Source: Diaphorobacter caeni
Lineage (GTDB): Bacteria; Pseudomonadota; Gammaproteobacteria; Burkholderiales; Burkholderiaceae_C
NCBI RefSeq assembly: GCF_015354245.1
Contig: NZ_JADKYZ010000004.1
Location: 1 to 64,000, forward strand
DNA: 64,000 bases
Direction of reading: 5' to 3'
Shown here: piece after piece, positions 7,890 through 18,368 of the stretch
Position numbering within the stretch: the first letter of the stretch is position 1
How the letters are laid out: every line of letters starts with the position of its first letter
Made by a program: the position numbers and the translations under genes
Notes under the pieces: generated by a model
What the model was told of the DNA's origin: nothing
What the model saw: the letters and a program-made list of their open reading frames with translations, nothing else
Databases searched by the model: none

Positions 7890-7907
7890 GGCTGGCGGGG
7901 ATCAAAC
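7890..7907. repeat. Left attachment site (copy of tRNA-Arg 3' core)
   Basis: GGCTGGCGGGGATC at 7890-7903 is identical to 17566-17579 in the tRNA gene. With the next four bases the match is 17 of 18 (AAAC here, GAAC in the tRNA). This is the direct repeat expected after integrase-mediated insertion into a tRNA gene. Confidence 0.65.
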
Positions 7908-7960
7908 AAATCTCCAAACCACGCGCCAGACAACGCTTTCGGCACATCAATATTCGGATG

Positions 7961-7983
7961 TACCAACAAAAATACCAACAAAA
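7961..7983 (+). repeat. Integrase arm-type repeats, left end
   Basis: TACCAACAAAA occurs at 7961-7971 and 7973-7983, 12 bases apart. The same pair with the same spacing lies at the other end of the element (17427-17449), so these are probably arm-type binding sites for the integrase. Confidence 0.55.
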
Positions 7984-7989
7984 GAAAAA

Positions 7990-8544
7990 GTGCCTCAGCC
8001 TGGGCACGAAAAATACGGTGCGGTTCGGCGTTTCAAATGCGGAAGGGCACACCCTCGAATTGGATGTCTGCACCACCGTTTCGGTGTTCTCGGCCCCCGC
8101 TTCGGGTGCCTAGGTCGATGCCCCCTCGGAAGCCGCGCCAGCATTGGTAACGCAATTTTGCGTCGAGTCTTTTACGATCAAGTCGTGAAACCTGCCGGGC
8201 GTCGTGGGTGCAACCATGTGCCAACGCAAATACGGGAATATCCCGCGTTTGCCATCACACCAACTTGCTCGGATTTGAAATCTGATTGGTTGGCCTTTAG
8301 GGACTCCGAAAACCCCACCTCGCGCGCGTACTGTTCTCTGGAGCTCGATTTGAAATCTGACTTCTGCACGAATCTGTGCAGTTGATGCTGGCTCAAAAGT
8401 GAGCCGGGGTGTCCTCGTGTTCCAGGACACGGCCTTGAAGCTCAGGCGGTCAATGTGATCAAACAGCGAATCAATAAGACTCTCACTCCATGCAACAAGA
8501 TGTATGAATAGCTAGAATTGATCTTTCCTCCTCGTCGATCAATC
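7990..8544. other. Gene-poor stretch with 14-base direct repeats
   Basis: No supported gene lies here. GATTTGAAATCTGA occurs at 8272-8285 and 8347-8360, 75 bases apart. Each contains the near-palindrome GATTT-G-AAATC, so they could be operator half-sites. A minus-strand frame from a TTG at 8396 to 8178 reads through both repeats, but its start is poorly supported. Confidence 0.35.
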
Positions 8545-8856
8545 ATGAAAAAACTAATCCCCCTTGCCTTGGCGCTTCTCTTGACCGCTTGCGCTTCGTC
8601 CGGTCACAAATTCACCATTCAACAAGCGAACCAGATTCAGAACGGTATGACACGTGAACAGGTCGTGAAGATCATGGGAGGGAAACCAAACTCCATAACC
8701 AACCAAGGCAAGACGTTCATTTGGTCATATGCCAAAGTGAACGGGTTTACTGGAGGTCATCGCAGTCGGGCTGTGAAAATTGATTTCGACGAAAACAACA
8801 TGTCATACGGAATCCCACCAGGCGGCGTTTACGGGGACACCGAAAAGTTCCAGTAA
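8545..8856 (+). CDS. SmpA/OmlA (BamE-like) lipoprotein
   Basis: A 103-residue lipoprotein with signal MKKLIPLALALLLTAC (lipobox LTAC), start at 8545. The mature part has the SmpA/OmlA pattern: IQNGMTREQVVKIMGGKPN near residues 32-50, followed by a strand-rich section (KTFIWSYAKVNG, then AVKIDFDENN). The NGMT..QV...LG.P motif defines this small domain, found in BamE and in many unrelated small lipoproteins. It is the only plus-strand gene inside the satellite and is separate from the replication operon. This is the usual arrangement for a cargo (moron) gene. Surface lipoproteins of satellites and phages can block superinfection, but nothing in the sequence proves that here. Confidence 0.75.
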   Translation: MKKLIPLALALLLTACASSGHKFTIQQANQIQNGMTREQVVKIMGGKPNSITNQGKTFIWSYAKVNGFTGGHRSRAVKIDFDENNMSYGIPPGGVYGDTEKFQ

Positions 8857-9128
8857 CTGGCCGCACAAATGAGATGGATGCGACTCCCGCTCGGTGTTAA
8901 CGCTTTAACATCGATGCAGCAAATCAAACGAATTCAAAGTGACCCTAAACCCAGCATCCATGAGGTCTGGCGGGCCGTTTTGCAGCCCATCGTTTGATTA
9001 ACAAATTCATAGGGGGGAAATTTTCTGCGCGTGCGGAACAGCGCGGTTTCCAGCCAGATCGCTCCAGCCTTTTGACCACCCCCTGCCCCCGACCGACCGA
9101 GAGCCAATCGCTCTGGTTCGCGTCAGGA

Positions 9129-9608
9129 TTACACTGGTGCTGCCATCAACAGAGATGCTGCTTCAAGCTGTCCTGCTAAAAGATCGTACCCAAGAGCCAA
9201 CGACTCTCTGGCGGCCCATGGTTCTTGATGTGAGCGCGCAGCTTCCCATGCGCGGCCAGGATCATCACCAGCAGTAACGCCGTAATAGTCTCTGACGGTC
9301 AACGCAAAAATTGGCACCTCTCGAAGACTATCAGCGGGGTCAAGACGTGAGACGAACACAATGCGAGCAATTGCAATTGACTCCATCTCCATCATCAGAA
9401 TTCGCGAACGCACGCTTCCAGCCGGGGTCTTTATGCATATCGAATCTCCATCGTCCTCAAGCATCGCTTGAAAGTCCGTACTTGATGCATATCGCTCAAC
9501 AAGCCATCGAAACATGACTTGGCAAGTTTGACGCAAATCCTTGAATTGCTGCACCTTACCAAAAACCTCGCGATGGTCAGGGTTCTTGAACGATTGCTTG
9601 TACTGCAT
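9129..9608 (-). CDS. Unknown satellite protein downstream of the capsid gene
   Basis: A 159-residue protein starting at 9608 (MQYKQSFKNPDH), supported by GGAGGA about 5 bases upstream. It combines an N-terminal helical part (FGKVQQFKDLRQTCQVMFRW) with a strand-rich middle (DSICIKTPAGSVRSRILMME) and a C-terminal Ala/Leu helix. I recognise no family. It lies after the capsid terminator, so it probably has its own promoter. In satellites this position often holds cargo such as anti-phage or helper-interference genes, so it is a candidate for such a role by position only. Confidence 0.55.
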   Translation of the reverse strand: MQYKQSFKNPDHREVFGKVQQFKDLRQTCQVMFRWLVERYASSTDFQAMLEDDGDSICIKTPAGSVRSRILMMEMESIAIARIVFVSRLDPADSLREVPIFALTVRDYYGVTAGDDPGRAWEAARSHQEPWAARESLALGYDLLAGQLEAASLLMAAPV

Positions 9609-9660
9609 GACTCCTCCGTTTGATTGAATGAGTGCATTGTTCCATGTGCGCTCCAAAAGA

Positions 9661-9690
9661 CAAAACCCCGCAGGGCGAACCATGCGGGGC
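9661..9690 (-). terminator. Terminator after the capsid gene
   Basis: On the minus strand the stem CCCCGCA / TGCGGGG with a 10-base loop is followed directly by TTTTG. It lies about 95 bases beyond the capsid stop (9783), which fits Rho-independent termination of the capsid transcript. Confidence 0.65.
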
Positions 9691-9782
9691 CTGTGCCTGC
9701 CACGTATCGAAAGGAGGGTGTTACCGCAGGCTCTCGGGGTTTACTCGCTCAGGCCCACTCACCGAGTAACGGCCAGTTCTGG

Positions 9783-11039
9783 TTAAGCCTTCACGCCGGT
9801 GATGACGGCCAGCGCCTTGGGGTAGCTGATTGCGATGTCTGCGCGGACATGGCAGATGAAGCCGACTTCACCAGTCCCGGCAAACAGTTCCTTGGCGAGC
9901 TGGATGCTGATCTGTTCGCGCATCATGAAGTTCACCTTACTGAAGTCGCACACGTAGATTTCGGAACAGTCAGTGCCAGTGCCCACCGTCAGGTCGTTGG
10001 GAATGGCCGTGGTGCTCAGCAGGTTGAGCTTTTCGATCATGTCGGGCTTGCGCAGTGGCTGGCCGGTGGTGTCCACCAGACCGCCCAGCTTTACCAGAGA
10101 GCGCGGGCTCATGATGGCAGCAGTGGGGTGAGGTGCGTTGGATTGCAGGATGCTTTGAATTGCGCTGAAGAAGTTGCCGTAACCAGCCAGCGCCGCACCG
10201 TTCGCACCGTTGGTGATCGAAGCCACTCCGGCGGTATTGGAGATGCCCAGCGGCTCGGGGTTGGTGCCGCTGCCACGCAATGCTGTGCGATCCAGTTCAA
10301 CGGCAAATGCTTGCGCAATGGCGGTGGTCAGAGCCTGCGACAGGTTCGGCGCATCGGCCAGCAGTTCGCGGCTGATCTTGAACAGGAAGGCCAGCGACTT
10401 CGGCACAGACTGAACTGCGCGGAAGGTGGGTTCGCTGTTGACGACATTTCCCGATTCCAGACGCCATGCAGCTTTTGGGATGGTGTCCATTGCCACGGTC
10501 GTGAACATCTTCGCGCCGCTGTCCAGAGGCACGATGCCAGCGCCAGCACTCAGCACGGAAGATGCAGGAACCAGAGCTTCCAAAATGCTCGGCATCACGA
10601 TCGATGGCAGTGCAAAACCACCAGCGGTATCGGTGCCAGTAGACAGGGCAGCGCGCACGGCTTCGGTGGTGTTCATGCCAGCCACGCCGCGCACAAAGTC
10701 ATCCAGCGCGAAGGGGGCCGCGCCATTGCCGTGAATGCGGTTCTTGGCGGCGTAGTGGCTGCGAATGTCAGCAGCAGAGTGCAGCGCTTTCAGGGGCGTA
10801 CCGTCGCTGTTCTTCCAGCCGCTGCCGCTCAGGGAGCCCGCCGCGTGTTCTTCGCCTGCACGTTGATTCATCTCGTGTTCGTGCTCGATCTTCCCGGCGA
10901 TGCGCTCCGCCTCAGAGATCATTTGATCGACGCGGTTTGCAATATCGACTGGCATTTTTCCAGGGTGTTGCTCCATCAGGGCATTCGCTTGTGCGACCTT
11001 TTGGTCATAGTCGTGGCGGAGTTGGGCAAGATTGGACAT
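9783..11039 (-). CDS. HK97-family phage major capsid protein
   Basis: A 418-residue protein starting at 11039 (MSNLAQLRHDYDQ). Residues about 1-75 form a charged coiled coil (the scaffold-like delta domain of HK97 capsid proteins). The capsid fold follows: STGTDTAGGFALPSIVMPSI, then SAGAGIVPLDSGAKMF, KAAWRLESGNV, the FLFKISRELLADAP spine-helix region, and ALRGSGTNPEPLGISNT near the E-loop/A-domain. The end VRADIAISYPKALAVITGV is typical. No prohead protease, portal or terminase is encoded nearby, so capsid assembly and packaging would need helper-phage proteins. It starts 97 bases after the HTH gene and may have its own promoter. No strong Shine-Dalgarno is visible. Confidence 0.9.
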   Translation of the reverse strand: MSNLAQLRHDYDQKVAQANALMEQHPGKMPVDIANRVDQMISEAERIAGKIEHEHEMNQRAGEEHAAGSLSGSGWKNSDGTPLKALHSAADIRSHYAAKNRIHGNGAAPFALDDFVRGVAGMNTTEAVRAALSTGTDTAGGFALPSIVMPSILEALVPASSVLSAGAGIVPLDSGAKMFTTVAMDTIPKAAWRLESGNVVNSEPTFRAVQSVPKSLAFLFKISRELLADAPNLSQALTTAIAQAFAVELDRTALRGSGTNPEPLGISNTAGVASITNGANGAALAGYGNFFSAIQSILQSNAPHPTAAIMSPRSLVKLGGLVDTTGQPLRKPDMIEKLNLLSTTAIPNDLTVGTGTDCSEIYVCDFSKVNFMMREQISIQLAKELFAGTGEVGFICHVRADIAISYPKALAVITGVKA

Positions 11040-11135
11040 GGGGTAATTCAATAAAAGTTGAGGTGCGTATAGCTTCTCTTGGAGCACCCCAGCGCAGCAA
11101 TGCGGCAACAGGGTGCATCCATACACAACGTGGTA

Positions 11136-11348
11136 TCAGAGTGGTGCAGGCAGTGACTTCAAGCGCTTTTCGAGAAGCCAGCGATCAAAATCAGCACGGG
11201 CGATAACAGTTATTCCGGGCGTGATCTCGAAGAAGCGCGGGAACGATGTATCGCGCTTGAGCATGCGTGTCAGCGTGTGGCGACTCACGCCCAGCTCGAA
11301 GGCAACAGCCTGCTTACGCATGAATTGAGAAATTGCTCGTTCGGTCAT
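11136..11348 (-). CDS. Small HTH DNA-binding protein of the satellite
   Basis: A 70-residue protein whose start at 11348 (MTERAISQF) overlaps the stop of the preceding gene as ATGA. It carries a helix-turn-helix (RKQAVAFELGVSRHTLTRML) followed by a wing-like segment (RFFEITPGITVIARADFDRW). The layout is that of AlpA/excisionase-like MerR-fold proteins. It sits immediately before the capsid gene and could control its transcription or take part in excision. A longer frame to 11378 is possible but would break the coupled overlap. Confidence 0.65.
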   Translation of the reverse strand: MTERAISQFMRKQAVAFELGVSRHTLTRMLKRDTSFPRFFEITPGITVIARADFDRWLLEKRLKSLPAPL

Positions 11349-11701
11349 GTCTTTGCACTTTCTTGATAGTTCACCCACAGCGCCGCACCATCAGCGCAGC
11401 GCTCGCCATACCCGGCGCCACGGCCAGCAGCGATGCAATCAGCACAGCCGAAGTGATGCAGGTAATAGGCGGTTGATCGTTCACGCCAGCGCGTCTGTTT
11501 TTTCCAGAAATCGAGACCACGCTCATGTGCGTCAATCTCGGCTTCCAGCAGCTTGGCCAGCTCGTCTTTGTGGCTGCGGATCAGCGTGCGCAGTTCGTCG
11601 TTGAGCAGCGTTGCGGGCTTGACCTTGATCGTGCGTTCCGGGGTCAAGTCCAGATGCAAGCCGACATCGCGGAGTGTTTCCAAAACGGCGGCGGCGATCA
11701 T
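11345..11701 (-). CDS. TubC N-terminal docking-domain-like protein
   Basis: A 118-residue protein. Residues 1-50 (VLETLRDVGLHLDLTPERTI, then KVKPATLLNDELRTLIRSHKDEL) match the small TubC N-terminal docking-like fold. That fold is often fused to or placed beside phage and satellite primase/helicase genes. The C-terminal part contains two Cys pairs (FGCADCIAAGRG, ERCADG), possibly a zinc site. Its start overlaps the helicase stop at 11701-11703 and its stop overlaps the HTH gene, so it is translationally coupled on both sides. A role in replication is inferred from the context. Confidence 0.6.
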   Translation of the reverse strand: MIAAAVLETLRDVGLHLDLTPERTIKVKPATLLNDELRTLIRSHKDELAKLLEAEIDAHERGLDFWKKQTRWRERSTAYYLHHFGCADCIAAGRGAGYGERCADGAALWVNYQESAKT

Positions 11702-12954
11702 CAGAACTCTTCATCGCCGTGAACGTCGGCGGCGGTTTCTGTCTTCACGTCGGTTGCGTTTTCTGCCGAAGATGCCCCGAAGGTGCCCAAGATGCCCTGT
11801 TTTAAAAGTTGGGCACCTTGGGCATCTTCGAGGGCATCTTCGGTTTCACCCACCGCCGCGAGCCATTCAGTTTTGGGAATAAATCCGTCCGGCAGTGACC
11901 AGTACCAACCATCTCCAACCCCGCCTTTGCGCGGTTTGATTCCCATCTTTTCGCGCACCGTCCGAACCTGCTTTTTGCTGTAGCCCATACCGACAATTGC
12001 CGCTTCGACTTGCTTGCTCTGGCGGCAGCCGTCCTTGAGTTCTGCCCACATGAGCATGGGCAAATCCGTCTTTCCGGCGGCGACTTCTTCAATCTCTTCG
12101 TCGGGGTCGGTGAGCAGGTCACGCGCACTGCCTTGCACCGCCTTGCCCCACGCAATGCGTGATGCCTGGATGCCGGGAAGTGGCTCTGTCTGCTCAAGGT
12201 GATATTCAAAGCCGCCATCGTCCGGGCCGATGTTGGATTTACTGCGAGCAAGAATTCGTGCGTCTTCGCCGTCCTCGGCACTCTTGACCTTCGCGGCAAC
12301 CAACACGATGCGAGCAACAGCGGTGAAGGCCACGCTACCCACCACGCGCTGAGCCGGGTCAGTACCTTGCCCACCTTTGGCGAAGTGGGTGATACCCAGC
12401 ACCGCGCAATCGCAGGCGTCGGCCAGGTCAACCAGTGGTTGCAGCGCTCGGCGCACTTCGGTGTTCTTGTGGCTGTCGCCAGTCACAGCAGACACGACAG
12501 GATCGACCACCAGCAGGCGAACGCCACCGATAGCCTCAATTGCTTCACGCAGTTGCTGCAAGTCCCGTGCAGGATCGAACGGAACCACCACGCCGTCACG
12601 CATAGCGCCTTTGACAAAGTGGCAGCGCGAGCGATCAGCCCCAGCCGCCAGCAATCGAGGTAGCAGAGTGTCGGCAGGATCGTCTTCACCGCTCCAGATC
12701 AGCACGTTGCCCTTCTCGCACCTATCGCCATCAGGCCAGCGCCCGCCCAGCGTCACTGTAGCTGCCATGGAGAGTGCAATCGTGGTCTTACCTTGACCTG
12801 GAGCGCCCGCCAGAATGTGCAGCTTCTTGAGCGCGAGCCAGTGCTTCCAAAGCCATGCAATAGGCTGAGGTGTGAGGTCTGCACCGCTCACCAGCACCAC
12901 GCGATCCATGGGCACGAGTTGAGCCATATCGATGGCTTCTGTGATGGCATTCAT
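11701..12954 (-). CDS. RepA-like AAA ATPase / replicative helicase
   Basis: A 417-residue ATPase. Walker A is LAGAPGQGKTTIA at about residues 48-60, the Walker B strand is VRLLVVDPVVSAV near residue 150, and a sensor-like GITHFAKGG follows. This is the AAA_25/RecA-type hexameric helicase arrangement seen in RepA-like proteins of plasmids, prophages and satellites. The C-terminal 130 residues contain a winged-helix-like section (SKKQVRTVREKMGIKPRKGG) that may bind DNA. It overlaps the primase gene by ATGA at 12951-12954. Together the two would prime and unwind the satellite origin. Confidence 0.85.
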   Translation of the reverse strand: MNAITEAIDMAQLVPMDRVVLVSGADLTPQPIAWLWKHWLALKKLHILAGAPGQGKTTIALSMAATVTLGGRWPDGDRCEKGNVLIWSGEDDPADTLLPRLLAAGADRSRCHFVKGAMRDGVVVPFDPARDLQQLREAIEAIGGVRLLVVDPVVSAVTGDSHKNTEVRRALQPLVDLADACDCAVLGITHFAKGGQGTDPAQRVVGSVAFTAVARIVLVAAKVKSAEDGEDARILARSKSNIGPDDGGFEYHLEQTEPLPGIQASRIAWGKAVQGSARDLLTDPDEEIEEVAAGKTDLPMLMWAELKDGCRQSKQVEAAIVGMGYSKKQVRTVREKMGIKPRKGGVGDGWYWSLPDGFIPKTEWLAAVGETEDALEDAQGAQLLKQGILGTFGASSAENATDVKTETAADVHGDEEF

Positions 12955-13787
12955 TGCGATGCCTCCTTCTCTTGAATCAGGCGCTTCAAATCGTTGAAAT
13001 CTGAGTCCTTCGGGCCACGTTGCAGGCCGTTGAAATCAGGCTTCATCAGCAGGCCACCGACAGCGCGGGCGGCTTCAGTTGCTGCGGTCATGCCGGGGTT
13101 GCCGGGCGTCTGCCAATCGTCATCAGCGGCGATGTACAGATCGATGCACGGATACTTGGAGCGCAAGGCCTTGGCGACGGGCAGCAAGTTGCCGCTGTTG
13201 TAGGCAACAGCAACGGCGTGGCCGCTGTCCTCGTGGACTGTCGCAGCCGTGGCAAAGCCTTCCGCGATCACGATGCGGCCCGATGGCCTGCCAATGCTGA
13301 AATAGCAGCCCTTCACCTTGCCGCCGCTGAGAAAGCGCTTATCGCCGTTGCGGTCGATGGTTTGCAAGCTGTGCAACACGCCATTGGCATCACGCAGGGG
13401 CACCAACAGCAGGCCACCATGCACGCGCACCCCGTGGGCCTTCACGCCCTTTTTGCTCAGGTAGGGATGTTCCAGGCACGGCTGAGACTTCAGCCATAGC
13501 TGTGCAGCTTCTGCTGCTGCCTGAGCCTGCCTCTCGCGCTGCTCGGCGTCGTGGGCCTTGCGCAGTGCATCCATGCGGCGCTTGAAGGCTTTGCGCTCGG
13601 CTTCAGTCAGTTCACGCTCATGGCGATTAGTGGCGACGAAACCGCAGCGAAAGCAATGCGCGACGCCACTCTCCGGCGACAGGATCGTGATGCCCATATC
13701 GCGCTTCTTGGGCTTGGTGCCGCACATCGGGCACATGGCGCGATGGTCACCGACAGGAAACTCATTCCAGAGAATGTGTGGTGTCAT
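12951..13787 (-). CDS. Toprim-domain primase
   Basis: A 278-residue primase-like protein. Residues 19-48 hold a zinc-ribbon (CPMCG ... CFRCG), followed by a charged helix and then a Toprim domain with GRIVIAEGFATAATVHEDSG (catalytic Glu) and LYIAADDDWQTPGN (the DxD acidic pair). A terminal SDFNDLKRL motif is typical of phage/satellite Toprim primases. It is short compared with DnaG and has no separate helicase domain; that function is supplied by the next gene. The start overlaps the DUF3102 stop by ATGA. Confidence 0.85.
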   Translation of the reverse strand: MTPHILWNEFPVGDHRAMCPMCGTKPKKRDMGITILSPESGVAHCFRCGFVATNRHERELTEAERKAFKRRMDALRKAHDAEQRERQAQAAAEAAQLWLKSQPCLEHPYLSKKGVKAHGVRVHGGLLLVPLRDANGVLHSLQTIDRNGDKRFLSGGKVKGCYFSIGRPSGRIVIAEGFATAATVHEDSGHAVAVAYNSGNLLPVAKALRSKYPCIDLYIAADDDWQTPGNPGMTAATEAARAVGGLLMKPDFNGLQRGPKDSDFNDLKRLIQEKEASQ

Positions 13788-14320
13788 CCAGCCTCCACGA
13801 TGTTGTCGGCGTCTTGCAACTTCCTGATTTCTTCGAGCGCGGCCTCCAGAGATTTGATAAGCGACGCCGCCTTCGATGGACCTATTGCCGAACCGATGCG
13901 CACGCGCTTGGCGGCATCACGCGCCACTTCCGCAGCACGTTGAAAAGTTTCACCCGCCTTGTTCCTTGTCTCCCTATTGGAGATGTAGCCAATGCGCTTT
14001 TCACGCGGCGGACTAACTGGATCAGTGGCAATCGCCTTCACAGCTTCGCGCAGGGGCAAATCGGCAACGCGTTGCCGTTCTGCATCTGGCAGTGCCGGGA
14101 ATGCCGTCGCCAACTTCATGTAGCTGCGTGCGGTGCGTGGGGCCACGGTGCAGTTCTCGCGCAGCCAGTTTTCCCACTGACCATGTGCAACTTGCTCCTT
14201 TGCCTGAACCAGCAGAGCGCCAGCTTCGAGCGCACACTCCATTGCGCCGCGTGCCTTGCTCTCAGCTTCGAGCACCTTGTCGTTGATGGCCTGGGCCAGT
14301 GTCGTTGCTACTGAACTCAT
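13784..14320 (-). CDS. DUF3102-family satellite/phage protein
   Basis: A 178-residue protein starting at 14320 (MSSVATTLAQ), where the ATG overlaps the upstream stop as ATGA. Residues about 20-75 have the DUF3102 pattern: a helix (AMECALEAGALLVQAKEQV) then GQWENWLRENCTVAPRTARS and YMKLA. This resembles the DNA-binding helices of ParB/KorB-like proteins. The C terminus is a long charged helix (AASLIKSLEAALEEIRKLQD). A role in replication control or partition is inferred from the fold and from its position just before the primase gene. Confidence 0.7.
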   Translation of the reverse strand: MSSVATTLAQAINDKVLEAESKARGAMECALEAGALLVQAKEQVAHGQWENWLRENCTVAPRTARSYMKLATAFPALPDAERQRVADLPLREAVKAIATDPVSPPREKRIGYISNRETRNKAGETFQRAAEVARDAAKRVRIGSAIGPSKAASLIKSLEAALEEIRKLQDADNIVEAG

Positions 14321-14646
14321 GCTGCACCTCCGGCCATGCGCTTGATGAGGACGTGCTGACGGCTCAGGATGCGGCTGATGTGATCGCCCATCTCGCACGC
14401 TGTCCAATCTGCGTTGGCAATCGGAATGTTTTTATCCCGGAAGAACTTGCCAATTTCAGGGTAGCTTTTCGCGGCCTCTTGGATGTCCTCCAGCAGCGTG
14501 TTGGCCGACACGATCCAATCGACGGCTAGACCGATGGACAGGGCTTCGTTCGCCATGGTTTCCATGTCCCAGTTGCGACGATCAGCAGTTTTTTGGCAAA
14601 GCTCCGCCTTCACCGCACCGTGGGCGGCGTTGTGTTGTGTGCTCAT
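14317..14646 (-). CDS. Hypothetical satellite protein, 109 aa
   Basis: A 109-residue helical protein (MANEALSIGLAVDWIVSANT, then EIGKFFRDKNIPIANADWTA, then HISRILSRQHVLIKRM). GGAGG lies about 10 bases before the ATG at 14646. It begins 4 bases after the stop of the Ash-like gene and ends in an ATGA overlap with the DUF3102 gene. No family recognised; it probably serves the replication module. Confidence 0.6.
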   Translation of the reverse strand: MSTQHNAAHGAVKAELCQKTADRRNWDMETMANEALSIGLAVDWIVSANTLLEDIQEAAKSYPEIGKFFRDKNIPIANADWTACEMGDHISRILSRQHVLIKRMAGGAA

Positions 14647-14650
14647 GGTT

Positions 14651-15154
14651 TTAAGCCTCCGTGCTCAGATCGAGACTGCGCAGGGCAGCGAGCGCCTGGA
14701 CGGCTTTGCGGCGTGCTCCGGCCACGTTGGCGTGCGGCTGGGACAGGTAGTGCACGGCCATGCTCAGCGCGTTGTGCGCATCAGCGTGATGTTGGATAGG
14801 GTCGTTGCCCTTGGTGGGCGTAGTGGCAGCGCGGCGGCTGGCCTTGTTGATGACGGTCATGGTCTGGATTCCTGCTGGAGAATCAAGGAAACCCACCGTT
14901 TGCGTTTTCATCGCATTGGGTGGACGGGATGTGAAAAACACGCCAGCAGACGTGCGGCGCAGGTTGCCCTTTTGCCCATCCCGCCCGAAACCGTGAGAGA
15001 GAGGTGCAGGCGCACCAGTCCCCAAAATTTGGACGTGACAAAAGCTCACTTTACGGTGGAGCTTGCTACCGCTGCTGGTTTGGTGTTTCTCAGGCACCGG
15101 GCCTCTCGGCTTGCCGCCATTGTAGATCGTCTCGGAGAAATCGCAAGAGATCAT
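14651..15154 (-). CDS. Ash/Icd-like protein
   Basis: A 167-residue protein. The ATG at 15154 follows GGGAGGT about 6 bases upstream and overlaps the preceding stop as ATGA. Residues about 55-100 (GFGRDGQKGNLRRTSAGVFF, then RPPNAMKTQTVGFLDSPAGI and QTMTV) match the conserved block of Ash-family proteins. These were first named in phage P4 and related to the host cell division inhibitor Icd of P1. The C-terminal 50 residues form a separate helical section (ADAHNALSMAVHYLSQPHA). The function in satellites is unclear; interference with host or helper processes is one possibility. Confidence 0.55.
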   Translation of the reverse strand: MISCDFSETIYNGGKPRGPVPEKHQTSSGSKLHRKVSFCHVQILGTGAPAPLSHGFGRDGQKGNLRRTSAGVFFTSRPPNAMKTQTVGFLDSPAGIQTMTVINKASRRAATTPTKGNDPIQHHADAHNALSMAVHYLSQPHANVAGARRKAVQALAALRSLDLSTEA

Positions 15155-15363
15155 TGCTTACCTCCCACAATGGCCAAGAAGCTAGCCAGTGCAGCCATAT
15201 CGGGGAAGTAGCGGGACATGCTCCAGCGACTGATCATGTAGCCACCGTCAGCGAGTTTGTGAGCGGCATAGCCCGCCAACGCGTATTTGGCGGCGAGGGT
15301 GGCGAAGGTCTTTTCGTCCAGGCGCGGCTGCACATCATGTGCAACTTGAATGTGTTCGCTCAT
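15151..15363 (-). CDS. Small hypothetical satellite protein, 70 aa
   Basis: A 70-residue protein (LDEKTFATLAAKYALAGYAA, then GGYMISRWSMSRYFPDMAAL). AAGGAG lies about 6 bases before the ATG at 15363. It is 10 bases after the AlpA-like gene and coupled by ATGA to the Ash-like gene. Small proteins of this type follow the first regulator in many proteobacterial prophages; no function is known. Confidence 0.6.
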   Translation of the reverse strand: MSEHIQVAHDVQPRLDEKTFATLAAKYALAGYAAHKLADGGYMISRWSMSRYFPDMAALASFLAIVGGKQ

Positions 15364-15372
15364 GGCGTCTCC

Positions 15373-15648
15373 TTACTTGGTTTCGGGAGAGAGATTGGCG
15401 ATGAGCTTGTCGATGTCTGCGCTACGCCAGCAAGTGGTGCGCGGTCCCAGTTTCACGGACTGAGGAAACTTGCCGGACTTGACGCCAGCCCACCAAGTGG
15501 CACGGCTAACCGGCACTCGCAGGAGAACATCACGCAGACGCAGAAGGGAAAGGGAATTGATTGCGGTAGTCAAATGGTGACTTTCAAGTTGCGTTGAAAA
15601 AGTCACCGGAGCCACAGAATGGGTCAGGCATACCCATACTGATCGCAC
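15373..15648 (-). CDS. AlpA-like transcriptional regulator / excisionase
   Basis: The recognisable part is SLLRLRDVLLRVPVSRATWW, then AGVKSGKFPQSVKLGPRTTC and WRSADIDKLIA. This is an AlpA-type MerR-fold HTH that activates integrase/excision functions in P4-like elements. There is no ATG: the frame opens at a GTG (15648), but GTG codons at 15615 and 15606 or a TTG at 15573 could serve, and a shorter protein of about 66-80 residues is more typical. The inverted repeat CTGATCG / CGATCAG (15639-15665) overlaps the longest start, which favours a downstream one. First gene of the leftward operon. Confidence 0.75.
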   Translation of the reverse strand: MRSVWVCLTHSVAPVTFSTQLESHHLTTAINSLSLLRLRDVLLRVPVSRATWWAGVKSGKFPQSVKLGPRTTCWRSADIDKLIANLSPETK

Positions 15649-15665
15649 ACTGTATGTACGATCAG
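15639..15665. promoter_or_regulatory. Inverted repeat upstream of the AlpA-like gene
   Basis: CTGATCG at 15639-15645 and its complement CGATCAG at 15659-15665 flank 13 bases. It is well placed to be an operator controlling the leftward satellite operon. Confidence 0.45.
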
Positions 15666-15745
15666 TTAGGCACCGCTAACACAAATGGTACGATGGCAAA
15701 ACTTAGGCCTCGGAAACTTAAGTAATGCCGGTTCTCCGGTGTTCG

Positions 15746-15785
15746 AAAACCCCCTTCGTCGGTAACCCGTCGTTGGGGGTTTTTA
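15746..15785. terminator. Strong hairpin in the control region
   Basis: Nine-base perfect arms AAAACCCCC / GGGGGTTTT enclose a 20-base loop containing a second small complementarity (CGTCGG / CCCGTCG, imperfect). On the plus strand it ends GGGGGTTTTT. On the minus strand it would also end in TTTT, so it can terminate in both directions, including transcripts leaving the integrase gene. The 16-kb side (15786-16153) shows no gene. Confidence 0.6.
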
Positions 15786-16153
15786 CTGGACAGTATTTAT
15801 CTGTCGTGTCCTTAGTGTGCCTCAATTGGCCTAGCGGACCAAGACACTACCTGTAGTGTATCCGCTGCCCTATTTATGAACTGCCTGCGAGCCGTTGCAC
15901 TCACTAGAGTTGCGTATGAAAGCTACGGTTTTATGCGGGTTGCAGCTATATTTGCCTCTATACATGCGGTGCAACCGTCATTTCCCATTGTAAGAAATGC
16001 TTAATTCGCGCTGCAGTGGTAGCGGTTGAGTTACTCCAGAGTTGCGACGAGTTTCACGAAATATTCGTCGACCTTGCCATGCGACTCAGCGACTGGATGG
16101 CTGATGATCGTGTACAAGTTCTCGTTCACCTGAGCGATCAACATGTGTTCAAC

Positions 16154-17395
16154 TTACGCGGACTTGAGTTGAACGACTTCACCGCCGCGCTTGAGTCGGT
16201 CAAGGTAGTCGGCCCATTCCCCCATCATCTTTCGGCGCTGTTCCATGAAGTCGGCGCGGTCGTAGGCCGATCCAAGCGGGCCAGATTTCCCATGCGCTAA
16301 CTGAGCTTCGATCACGTCCGCATGCATTCCTGGCAGGCGCTCAATCATCAAGGTTCTGGCCATCGCGCGGAAACCGTGAGCCGTCATCTCATCGCCTGAG
16401 TATCCAAGGCGGCGTAGAGCGGCATTGAGCGTCATATCGGACATGGGCCTACCCTCGCCCCGCGTGGATGGGAAAACGAATGTCCTATAGCCCGTGAGCG
16501 GTTGGATATATCGCAGGATTTCCACCGCCTGCGGGGCCAGCGGGACGAAGTGCGGCCTACCATTGAGCTTCTGCGCTACCGTGCGTTTCATCGAGGCCGA
16601 TGGAATGGTGAGCATCCCGGCCTCAAGATCAATCCAGCCCCATTCCATCTTCCGAATATTGGCGGGTCGCTGGAACAGCAGCGCGGACAGTTGCAGCGCG
16701 GCCTTGGTGATCGGCTGGCCGGTGTAGGTATCGAAGGCGCGCAGCAGCTCGCCCACCTTCAACGGCTCCAGCACAGCGGACATATGCTTGACCACCACAG
16801 GCTGTAATGCACCTTGCAGGTCAGGCATTGGATTTCGCTCACAGCGTCCTGTCTGGATGGCATACCGAAACACCTGCCCCGAGTTTTGACTCAGCGTGTG
16901 GGCTGCGTCTCGGTTGCCGCGATTCTCCACCTTGCGTATCGCGTTGAGCATCATGGGCGCGGTAATGTCCGTGAGCTGCATCCGGCCCACATAAGGGAAG
17001 ATGTCCTTCTCCAGCCCCCGAAGCCACTTAGCCGCGTACTTCTCACTCCAGCCGCTATTTTTCACATTGTGATATTCGCGGGCTACCGCCTCGAAAGTGT
17101 TTTCGCCCGCGACGGCCTTGGCGGCTTTTTCCGCCTGCTTCACGACGCCGGGGTCGATACCCTCCGCCAGTCGTGCTTTGGCGTCATCGCGCTTTCTTCG
17201 GGCCTGCGCCAGCGTCACCGCCGGGTAGACGCCAAGCGCCAGCGTCTTTTGCTTAGTATTGAACCGGTAGTTCAGGCGCCAGTATTTGCCCACCGCCGTG
17301 ATAAGCAAATACAAGCCACCGCCGTCGCTGTGCTTGTCCCCGGCAGGCTTGCCGGAATGCTTCGCCTGCTTGATGAATGTGTCTGATAGCGGCAT
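16154..17395 (-). CDS. P4-type tyrosine integrase
   Basis: A 413-residue integrase. Residues 1-90 form the DUF4102-type arm-binding domain (GGGLYLLITAVGKYWRLNYR, then TLALGVYPAVTLAQARRKRD). The catalytic domain shows Arg in LFQRPANIRKMEW, HGFRAMART (HxxR) and QLAHGKSGPLGSAYDRADF with the nucleophilic Tyr. Integrases of this class insert in tRNA 3' ends, and here tRNA-Arg lies 165 bases upstream of the start. TGTTGGTA at 17396-17403 abuts the ATG, and more copies follow in the promoter, so binding of the integrase or a regulator there could repress it. Confidence 0.9.
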   Translation of the reverse strand: MPLSDTFIKQAKHSGKPAGDKHSDGGGLYLLITAVGKYWRLNYRFNTKQKTLALGVYPAVTLAQARRKRDDAKARLAEGIDPGVVKQAEKAAKAVAGENTFEAVAREYHNVKNSGWSEKYAAKWLRGLEKDIFPYVGRMQLTDITAPMMLNAIRKVENRGNRDAAHTLSQNSGQVFRYAIQTGRCERNPMPDLQGALQPVVVKHMSAVLEPLKVGELLRAFDTYTGQPITKAALQLSALLFQRPANIRKMEWGWIDLEAGMLTIPSASMKRTVAQKLNGRPHFVPLAPQAVEILRYIQPLTGYRTFVFPSTRGEGRPMSDMTLNAALRRLGYSGDEMTAHGFRAMARTLMIERLPGMHADVIEAQLAHGKSGPLGSAYDRADFMEQRRKMMGEWADYLDRLKRGGEVVQLKSA

Positions 17396-17457
17396 TGTTG
17401 GTATGTGCCCATGTTGGTATGCGAGATACCAGCAAAACTACCAACAAAATGTTGGTA
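17396..17457. repeat. Integrase arm-type repeats and palindrome, right end
   Basis: TACCAGCAAAA (17427-17437) and TACCAACAAAA (17439-17449) repeat the pair found at 7961-7983 with the same 12-base period. TGTTGGTA occurs at 17396-17403, 17412-17419 and 17450-17457; the last forms an 8-3-8 palindrome with TACCAACA at 17439-17446. These are probably integrase arm sites that overlap the integrase promoter. Confidence 0.55.
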
Positions 17458-17559
17458 TGTCTATAGACGTTCTCAGACTATCTCAGACAACAAAAAGCCC
17501 GCAATGCAAGGAAACATGCGGGCTTTGGAGACTTTATTAGACTGCTTCAGATGGTGATC

Positions 17560-17635
17560 TGGCGCGGCTGGCGGGGATCGAACCCACGACCCTTGGCTTC
17601 GGAGGCCAATACTCTATCCACTGAGCTACAGCCGC
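17560..17635 (-). tRNA. tRNA-Arg (anticodon CCG)
   Basis: A complete cloverleaf can be read on the minus strand. The acceptor arms GCGGCTG / CAGCCGC are followed by discriminator G and an encoded CCA. The anticodon stem TTGGC / GCCAA holds the loop CTCCGAA with anticodon CCG, and the T-arm loop is GGTTCGATCCC. Length is 76 bases. The 3' half is the integration site of the satellite, and the insertion restores an intact gene. Confidence 0.95.
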
Positions 17636-17717
17636 GTGCTGTATGTTGTAACGAGCAAAAAAGCGCGATTGCAAGCAACCGGATCGCCGATTATGGCATG
17701 GGTCCGGGGTGTTCTTC

Positions 17718-18368
17718 TCAGGATGGAGGGCCGGAGGTGCTCACTCGCGACAGGTGGGGCGCAAAGCCCAAGCCTGACAAATAGGCATCCACTGACATAC
17801 AACCTGCATCTGTCAGAGGGAAACTCCCCTCATTCAAGACCCAGCCGTGTATGAGCCCGACAAACAACGCATGCAAACCCTGCGCCGCGATATCTGCAGG
17901 CATGGGCAGCGTCACGTTCAGTTGCAGGGCCGCCGCTCTCAGGTCGTCGGTGAACTTGGCGCGCGAGACCTCCTCGGCCTCGACGTGGCGCTCGCGAACG
18001 GCGGCGAGTTCGCCGACGTACTCCATCTTGAAGACGGCGGTGTCGAAGATCTTTCGACGGCGGTCGTCGAGCGCGACGTTCTCGAAGACATTGCGGATGG
18101 ACTTGCGGATGCGGTCCAGTGGCTCGAGGTCGCCGTACATGTCGTCGCAGATTTCGTCGAAGGGCATGCAGACGCGGTTCAGCACGGAGTTGAACACGTC
18201 CACCTTGTCCTTGAAGTGCCAGTACACCGCGCCACGCGTGGCTCCGGCACGCTGGGCGATGTCGCCCAGCGACGTGCGGGACACGCCCTTTTCGAAGAAA
18301 ACCTCTTCGGCCGCATCCAGAAGTCTGGTGCGGGTTTCATCTGCTTCTGCTTTGGTTCGCCTTGCCAT
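17718..18368 (-). CDS. TetR/AcrR-family repressor of the efflux operon
   Basis: A 216-residue regulator. The N-terminal HTH (LLDAAEEVFFEKGVSRTSLG, then DIAQRAGATRGAVYWHFKDK) is a textbook AcrR/MexR-type TetR domain. The ligand-binding part (DEICDDMYGDLEPLDRIRKS and onward) is like that of AcrR/TtgR. It is divergent from the RND pump genes and shares a 240-base promoter region with a 30-base palindromic operator. It probably represses both itself and the pump until an antibiotic, solvent or phenolic inducer binds. Confidence 0.9.
   Translation of the reverse strand: MARRTKAEADETRTRLLDAAEEVFFEKGVSRTSLGDIAQRAGATRGAVYWHFKDKVDVFNSVLNRVCMPFDEICDDMYGDLEPLDRIRKSIRNVFENVALDDRRRKIFDTAVFKMEYVGELAAVRERHVEAEEVSRAKFTDDLRAAALQLNVTLPMPADIAAQGLHALFVGLIHGWVLNEGSFPLTDAGCMSVDAYLSGLGFAPHLSRVSTSGPPS

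Follow-up and report, generated by a model that had tools for sequence, protein, structure and literature searches.

A satellite element with a lone capsid gene

A 64,000-nucleotide stretch of the 5.99-Mb Diaphorobacter caeni genome (contig NZ_JADKYZ010000004.1, positions 1 to 64,000; hereafter the window) carries a 9.7-kb element at 7890-17579, inside a tRNA-Arg gene. Judged by its sequence, the element is a phage satellite of the type of the Gram-negative phage-inducible chromosomal islands (PICIs), with an intact, selected and lone gene for a major capsid protein (MCP). The N-terminal scaffold (delta) domain of this protein resembles that of one HK97-type phage lineage, and its shell belongs to another, satellite lineage. 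PICIs with a lone MCP are already known; what looks new is the mosaicism of delta and shell. We propose that the MCP may redirect the capsid assembly of a helper phage.

Pfam and PHROGs searches recovered the integrase, AlpA, primase, helicase and lone HK97-type MCP where the initial annotation had placed them (Table 1). Portal, protease, terminase and tail families were not detected at E ≤ 0.01 among the scanned element proteins, and no overlooked terminase or portal gene came to light. As in Gram-negative PICIs, the integration zone has an integrase and AlpA, the core genes run in one direction, and no phage head or tail module is complete. The replication zone comprises a primase and a helicase, with an iteron-like inverted repeat, a candidate origin, within the 3' end of the helicase gene. 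The core genes all lie on the minus strand, and only the terminal lipoprotein gene is on the plus strand.

The right border is set by the tRNA gene. Of the 14-mers in 17251-17750, the only one recurring in the window is the attL copy (plus strand searched); a 14-base repeat is short by itself, with about 0.1 chance matches expected by our own estimate. The left border is also backed by window 7960-7992, which matches the inner side of the corresponding end of a related element (L022, described below) over 33 bp at 91%. A search of the whole element against plasmids gave no match.

Structure and constraint of the capsid protein

The MCP matches PF05065 with an E value of 9.5e-29 and 101 bits (cut-off 24.2 bits). 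Translation probably begins at the ATG at 11039, which gives 418 aa, and not at the GTG further upstream (11126); the related elements L022 and L023 have the same start. An AlphaFold2 model built from 54 sequences (predicted local distance difference test score 86.3) predicts two delta helices (residues 2-25 and 32-69) followed by an HK97-type shell. The best PDB matches of the model in Foldseek were phage D3 (1.7e-14) and Adephagia (about 2e-14), followed by a gene transfer agent (7e-14) and the HK97 prohead (1e-13).

The L022 MCP is 94% identical to that of the window, with a ratio of nonsynonymous to synonymous substitution rates (dN/dS) of 0.053. The same comparison gave 0.059 for the helix-turn-helix (HTH) protein, 0.079 for the helicase, 0.10 for the integrase (at a dS above 2) and 0.25 for the primase; the MCP is thus the most constrained of the five genes compared.

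Mosaicism of delta and shell

A tree of 32 MCP sequences was built, comprising 18 labelled as satellite, 9 as phage and 5 as unassigned; here and in the delta and shell comparison these labels are provisional, several short contigs being counted as satellite and L058 as phage without gene evidence. The window MCP falls within a well-supported set of ten rows (8 satellite, 2 unassigned, 0 phage). Two phage-type MCPs outside the tree, L051 and L052, are nearer to the window MCP than the phages in it, their shells being 36% identical to that of the window MCP and 45-47% identical to that of L046, so the satellite-only clade holds for the inner ten rows only.

The window delta, 130 aa long, matches those of three prophages of the Comamonas family whose shells rank among the least similar; the phages that it matches have deltas of 123 aa. 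A satellite-type MCP and the MCP of an adjoining prophage, both on the same viral contig, share 43% identity in the delta and 28% in the shell. The locus L048 contains two tandem MCP-TerS units; compared within the MCP gene, they are 0.49-0.68 identical at the DNA level across most of the delta and 0.80-1.0 across the shell, and the stretch just upstream of the gene has an identity of 0.72-0.85. The available excerpts of the literature on delta domains in satellites and islands yielded no description of a satellite-lineage shell with a phage-matched delta, or of delta exchange.

Related elements in other genomes

The initial annotation had proposed a search for the same gene order elsewhere, and such elements do occur. 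In a second species of the genus (genome G147), the element L022 repeats the core gene order of the window element, from the integrase through AlpA, primase, helicase and HTH protein to the MCP. It adjoins another tRNA gene, tRNA-Arg(TCT), and lies between attachment-site repeats (3851/13495) of 42 bp or more. Similar elements were found in other genomes. Among 299 genomes of the Comamonas family, that of D. caeni included, 16 match the MCP at E ≤ 1e-10. The loci were classed by open reading frame (ORF) reading together with searches for HK97-type and lambda-type portals. Ten are satellite-like: the D. caeni genome (G000), G147, G023, G171, G049, G192, G074 (a limited assignment, from a short contig with no integrase seen), G106, G165 and G270. 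Four (G156, G174, G076 and G111) are prophages, in which portal and tail-type genes adjoin that for the MCP, and two have no class, namely G128 (an MCP fragment with stops) and G234 (a 3.7-kb contig). The PHROG family 2 terminase probe proved insensitive, giving no match in G111 despite a TerL ORF read beside the portal, so it is from ORF reading that TerL is judged absent in the relatives. In order-level and class-level draws the MCP had matches in 4 of 399 genomes (E ≤ 1e-15) and 4 of 369 (by alignment, E ≤ 1e-30), both counts including the D. caeni genome and G128. No study of satellites in Comamonas or Acidovorax was evident by title among the literature matches listed.

Repeat-bounded elements measure 9.6 kb (L022), 9.2 kb (L024), 8.7 kb (L034) and about 10.5 kb (L026, with a 15-bp repeat only). 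Their late-zone content differs: PHROGs detected TerS-family genes in L023, L034, L003, L040, L033 and L048. In three satellite-type loci with TerS-like genes, L003 (6070-7986), L033 (9051-11027) and L042 (5553-7319), a prohead protease is apparently fused to the MCP; the PHROGs check of the fusion covered L003, and that of L033 comes from ORF reading. The viral contig L042 (1-8718) has first and last ORFs that share sequence, suggesting a circle, and by ORF reading encodes a ParA-like protein, two TerS-like proteins and the protease-MCP; it is perhaps a satellite in plasmid form.

Four further satellite-type loci combine the MCP with a tape-measure protein, the two proteins that determine how large head and tail become: L044 (5759-9484), L126 (10994-13150) and L127 (7853-9097), by PHROGs, and L043 (11445-13883), by Pfam. 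No portal or terminase was found among their neighbouring ORFs, and the portal match in L043 is distant, at 2168-2842. Small Clostridioides difficile plasmids with a lone MCP and a helicase (L135, pCD630, 555-1886) offer a distant parallel. A Comamonas testosteroni locus (L004, 10001-10660) contains a decayed MCP copy with two stops, beside genes read as transposases.

Comparison with known satellites

The element shares a P4-type integrase, AlpA and its own replication genes with P4-like satellites, but has its own MCP gene, which P4, to our knowledge, lacks. P4 instead resizes heads via Sid (PMC6893505). The statement in the initial annotation that classical PICIs have no MCP gene of their own is contradicted by published examples: 21 of 29 reference Gram-negative PICIs carry one MCP gene (PMC10111431), PmCI172 encodes an MCP and makes small heads (PMC6092414), and SaPIbov5 makes small capsids with the MCP homologue Ccm (PMC8569155). 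With EcCICFT073 and PmCI172 the element shares co-oriented core genes, a small genome, and an arrangement of integrase, AlpA, variable zone, primase and replication zone, and late zone with one MCP. It differs from them in its origin in the Comamonas family, in the phage-like delta on a satellite-lineage HK97 shell, and in having no match to C4 or isrK RNA. Gram-negative PICIs are further marked by attachment sites that prophages never use and by genes found in PICIs alone, a KEGG-based trait (PMC6092414).

Ccm sits in pentamers, has its delta trimmed off and does not assemble alone, and its delta is suspected to matter (PMC8569155). Like Ccm, the window MCP is a satellite-encoded homologue with a predicted HK97 fold and a delta, in an element where no protease gene was found. 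By the published description, the Ccm delta has 87 residues compared with 128 in phi12, and Ccm is without the long N-arm (PMC8569155); the 130-aa window delta, in contrast, is not shortened. The element resembles capsid-forming PICIs in owning its shell protein, but those have genes for the portal, protease and connectors and for the two terminase subunits (PMC10690885), and no portal, protease, TerS or TerL was found in the window element.

Proposed role of the capsid protein

By analogy with these systems, we propose, at a probability of a little under one half, that a satellite MCP with a phage-like delta redirects helper capsid assembly, using the helper portal, protease, TerL and tail. 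From the families of the proteins, helper infection or induction would lead to AlpA-driven excision, and the primase and helicase would replicate the element. If the MCP behaves like Ccm of SaPIbov5, the delta would let the satellite subunit join helper assembly around the helper portal, the helper protease would trim the delta, and the shell part would fix a head, presumably small, that fits a genome of roughly 10 kb. Helper TerL and tail would then finish the particle, and helper yield would be expected to drop. Phages that match the delta, or their kin, would be the helpers. A 2019 review called it a tempting speculation that the PmCI172 capsid protein acts like Ccm, and described the mechanism as still undetermined (PMC6893505). 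The capsid replacement put forward in the initial annotation holds to the extent that a satellite with a lone selected MCP is present and helper-assisted capsid redirection is the best reading, whereas its premise on PICIs was wrong.

More tentatively, satellite MCPs may be modular, with a shell owned by the satellite and a delta cassette that can be exchanged, either taken from the present helper or matched to it. The interface parts (the delta, and TerS where present) might then track the helper, and the shell would remain that of the satellite. A helper-matching delta cassette would provide a mechanism for the capsid genes of Gram-negative PICIs, make the helper predictable from delta sequence, lend itself to a clean test wherever a satellite and a prophage are paired, and explain how satellites keep one shell yet switch helpers. 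The controls on delta mosaicism are mixed. The L048 units also have low stretches elsewhere, of 0.55-0.65 at 400-520 bp upstream of the MCP gene and, twice, of 0.58 downstream of it, so the identity dips are not unique to the delta. The similarity of the deltas could plausibly, though we do not favour it, reflect shared ancestry or helix composition bias rather than helper matching.

Full shell replacement, in which the satellite MCP alone forms the head and the helper gives portal, protease, TerL and tail, appears unlikely. A full-length shell (288 aa) with a predicted HK97 fold would suit it, as would the protease-MCP fusion and TerS of L003, and similarly L033, which look as if these elements made their own shell; but Ccm is unable to form capsids alone (PMC8569155), and no protease was found in the window. 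We consider it improbable that the MCP acts by interference only, poisoning helper head assembly while the satellite is packaged in full-size helper heads. Ccm expression alone lowers the phi12 titre 1000-10000 fold (PMC5052747), and EcCICFT073 is found in phage-size heads despite encoding a putative capsid protein (PMC6092414), yet interference by itself leaves the TerS and fused protease beside the MCP in relatives unexplained. PICIs do take up late genes from prophages (PMC10111431) and the C. testosteroni copy has decayed, but a captured late gene of little function is very improbable given the dN/dS of 0.053, the 8.7-10.5 kb elements with one MCP at several tRNA genes and the ten-MCP clade without phages, and a deletion remnant of a full prophage is rejected by the same dN/dS, the conserved gene order and the defined borders.

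Prophages of the same genome

At least four prophage loci, differing in type, are present in the D. caeni genome (C1:845105, C32:4165, C33:88873 and C34:248757), called by portal, terminase and capsid matches together with ORF reading. The C1, C33 and C34 loci have one or two family matches each in addition to ORF reading; in the C32 prophage the portal and MCP are family matches, and TerS and TerL were read as ORFs. The window delta matched none of these prophages at E ≤ 0.001, and capsid comparison did not support the resident C32 prophage as the helper.

Other genes and sequences of the element

The remaining features are listed in Table 1. The Toprim primase and AAA_25 helicase are encoded by two genes and not as one fusion. 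The HTH protein encoded immediately upstream of the MCP gene has counterparts in the same position in L022 (96%) and L023 (71%). A role for it as TerS is not supported, as L023 has both this homologue and a separate TerS. A PADLOC search with eight window proteins gave no match.

Table 1 Features of the satellite element (window coordinates).
Feature	Position	Strand	Evidence
attL, 14-base copy of tRNA-Arg segment	7890..7903		exact repeat of 17566-17579
Small BamE-like lipoprotein, cargo	8518..8856	+	BamE 7.2e-6; phrog_3135 2.4e-13; weak phrog_1119 Cor superinfection exclusion
184-aa protein, cargo	9129..9683	-	no family (Pfam, PHROGs, PADLOC)
HK97-type MCP, delta 130 aa + shell 288 aa	9783..11039	-	PF05065
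HTH (AlpA-like) protein	11136..11378	-	HTH_17 below cut-off
118-aa protein	11345..11701	-	no family (Pfam, PHROGs, PADLOC); partial homologue in L023, 62% over 47 aa
Helicase-type AAA protein	11701..12954	-	AAA_25 2.3e-40; DnaB_C 1.4e-4, below cut-off
78-bp inverted repeat, candidate origin	11766..11843		opposite-strand self-match, 84%; aagatgccc/aaggtgccc iteron-like units
Toprim primase	12951..13787	-	Toprim_3 4.3e-9; phrog_2249 primase 4e-68
DUF3102 protein	13784..14407	-	PF11300 4.1e-9
Small gene, 109 aa	14317-14646	-	no Pfam, PHROG, PADLOC match at E ≤ 0.01
Small gene, 167 aa	14651-15154	-	no Pfam, PHROG, PADLOC match at E ≤ 0.01
Small gene, 70 aa	15151-15363	-	no Pfam, PHROG, PADLOC match at E ≤ 0.01
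AlpA-like activator/excisionase	15373..15648	-	Phage_AlpA 3.3e-9; L022 counterpart 87% over 60 aa
Palindrome ACACTACCTGTAGTGT, candidate NrdR box	15844..15859		identical to box upstream of host gene
Tyrosine integrase, P4 type	16154..17395	-	Arm-DNA-bind_3, Phage_int_M, Phage_integrase (Pfam)
tRNA-Arg (CCG), integration target, right border	17560..17635	-	ARAGORN; Rfam tRNA

Between the integrase and alpA genes, window 15840-15868 repeats a palindrome from a host promoter exactly over 29 bp. We take the host gene behind it to be nrdA, so the box may be an NrdR operator. A promoter-like site was not found next to the satellite copy, and a literature search for phage satellites and NrdR returned nothing. 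The box is not a general satellite feature, the best match at ten other satellite-type loci being 12/16 compared with 13/16 in the window. Besides the satellite copy, it is present in five of six genomes of the genus (one with 2 mismatches), and in the other four of these five it adjoins homologues of the putative nrdA (93-98%). Such a box could link the satellite to nucleotide stress.
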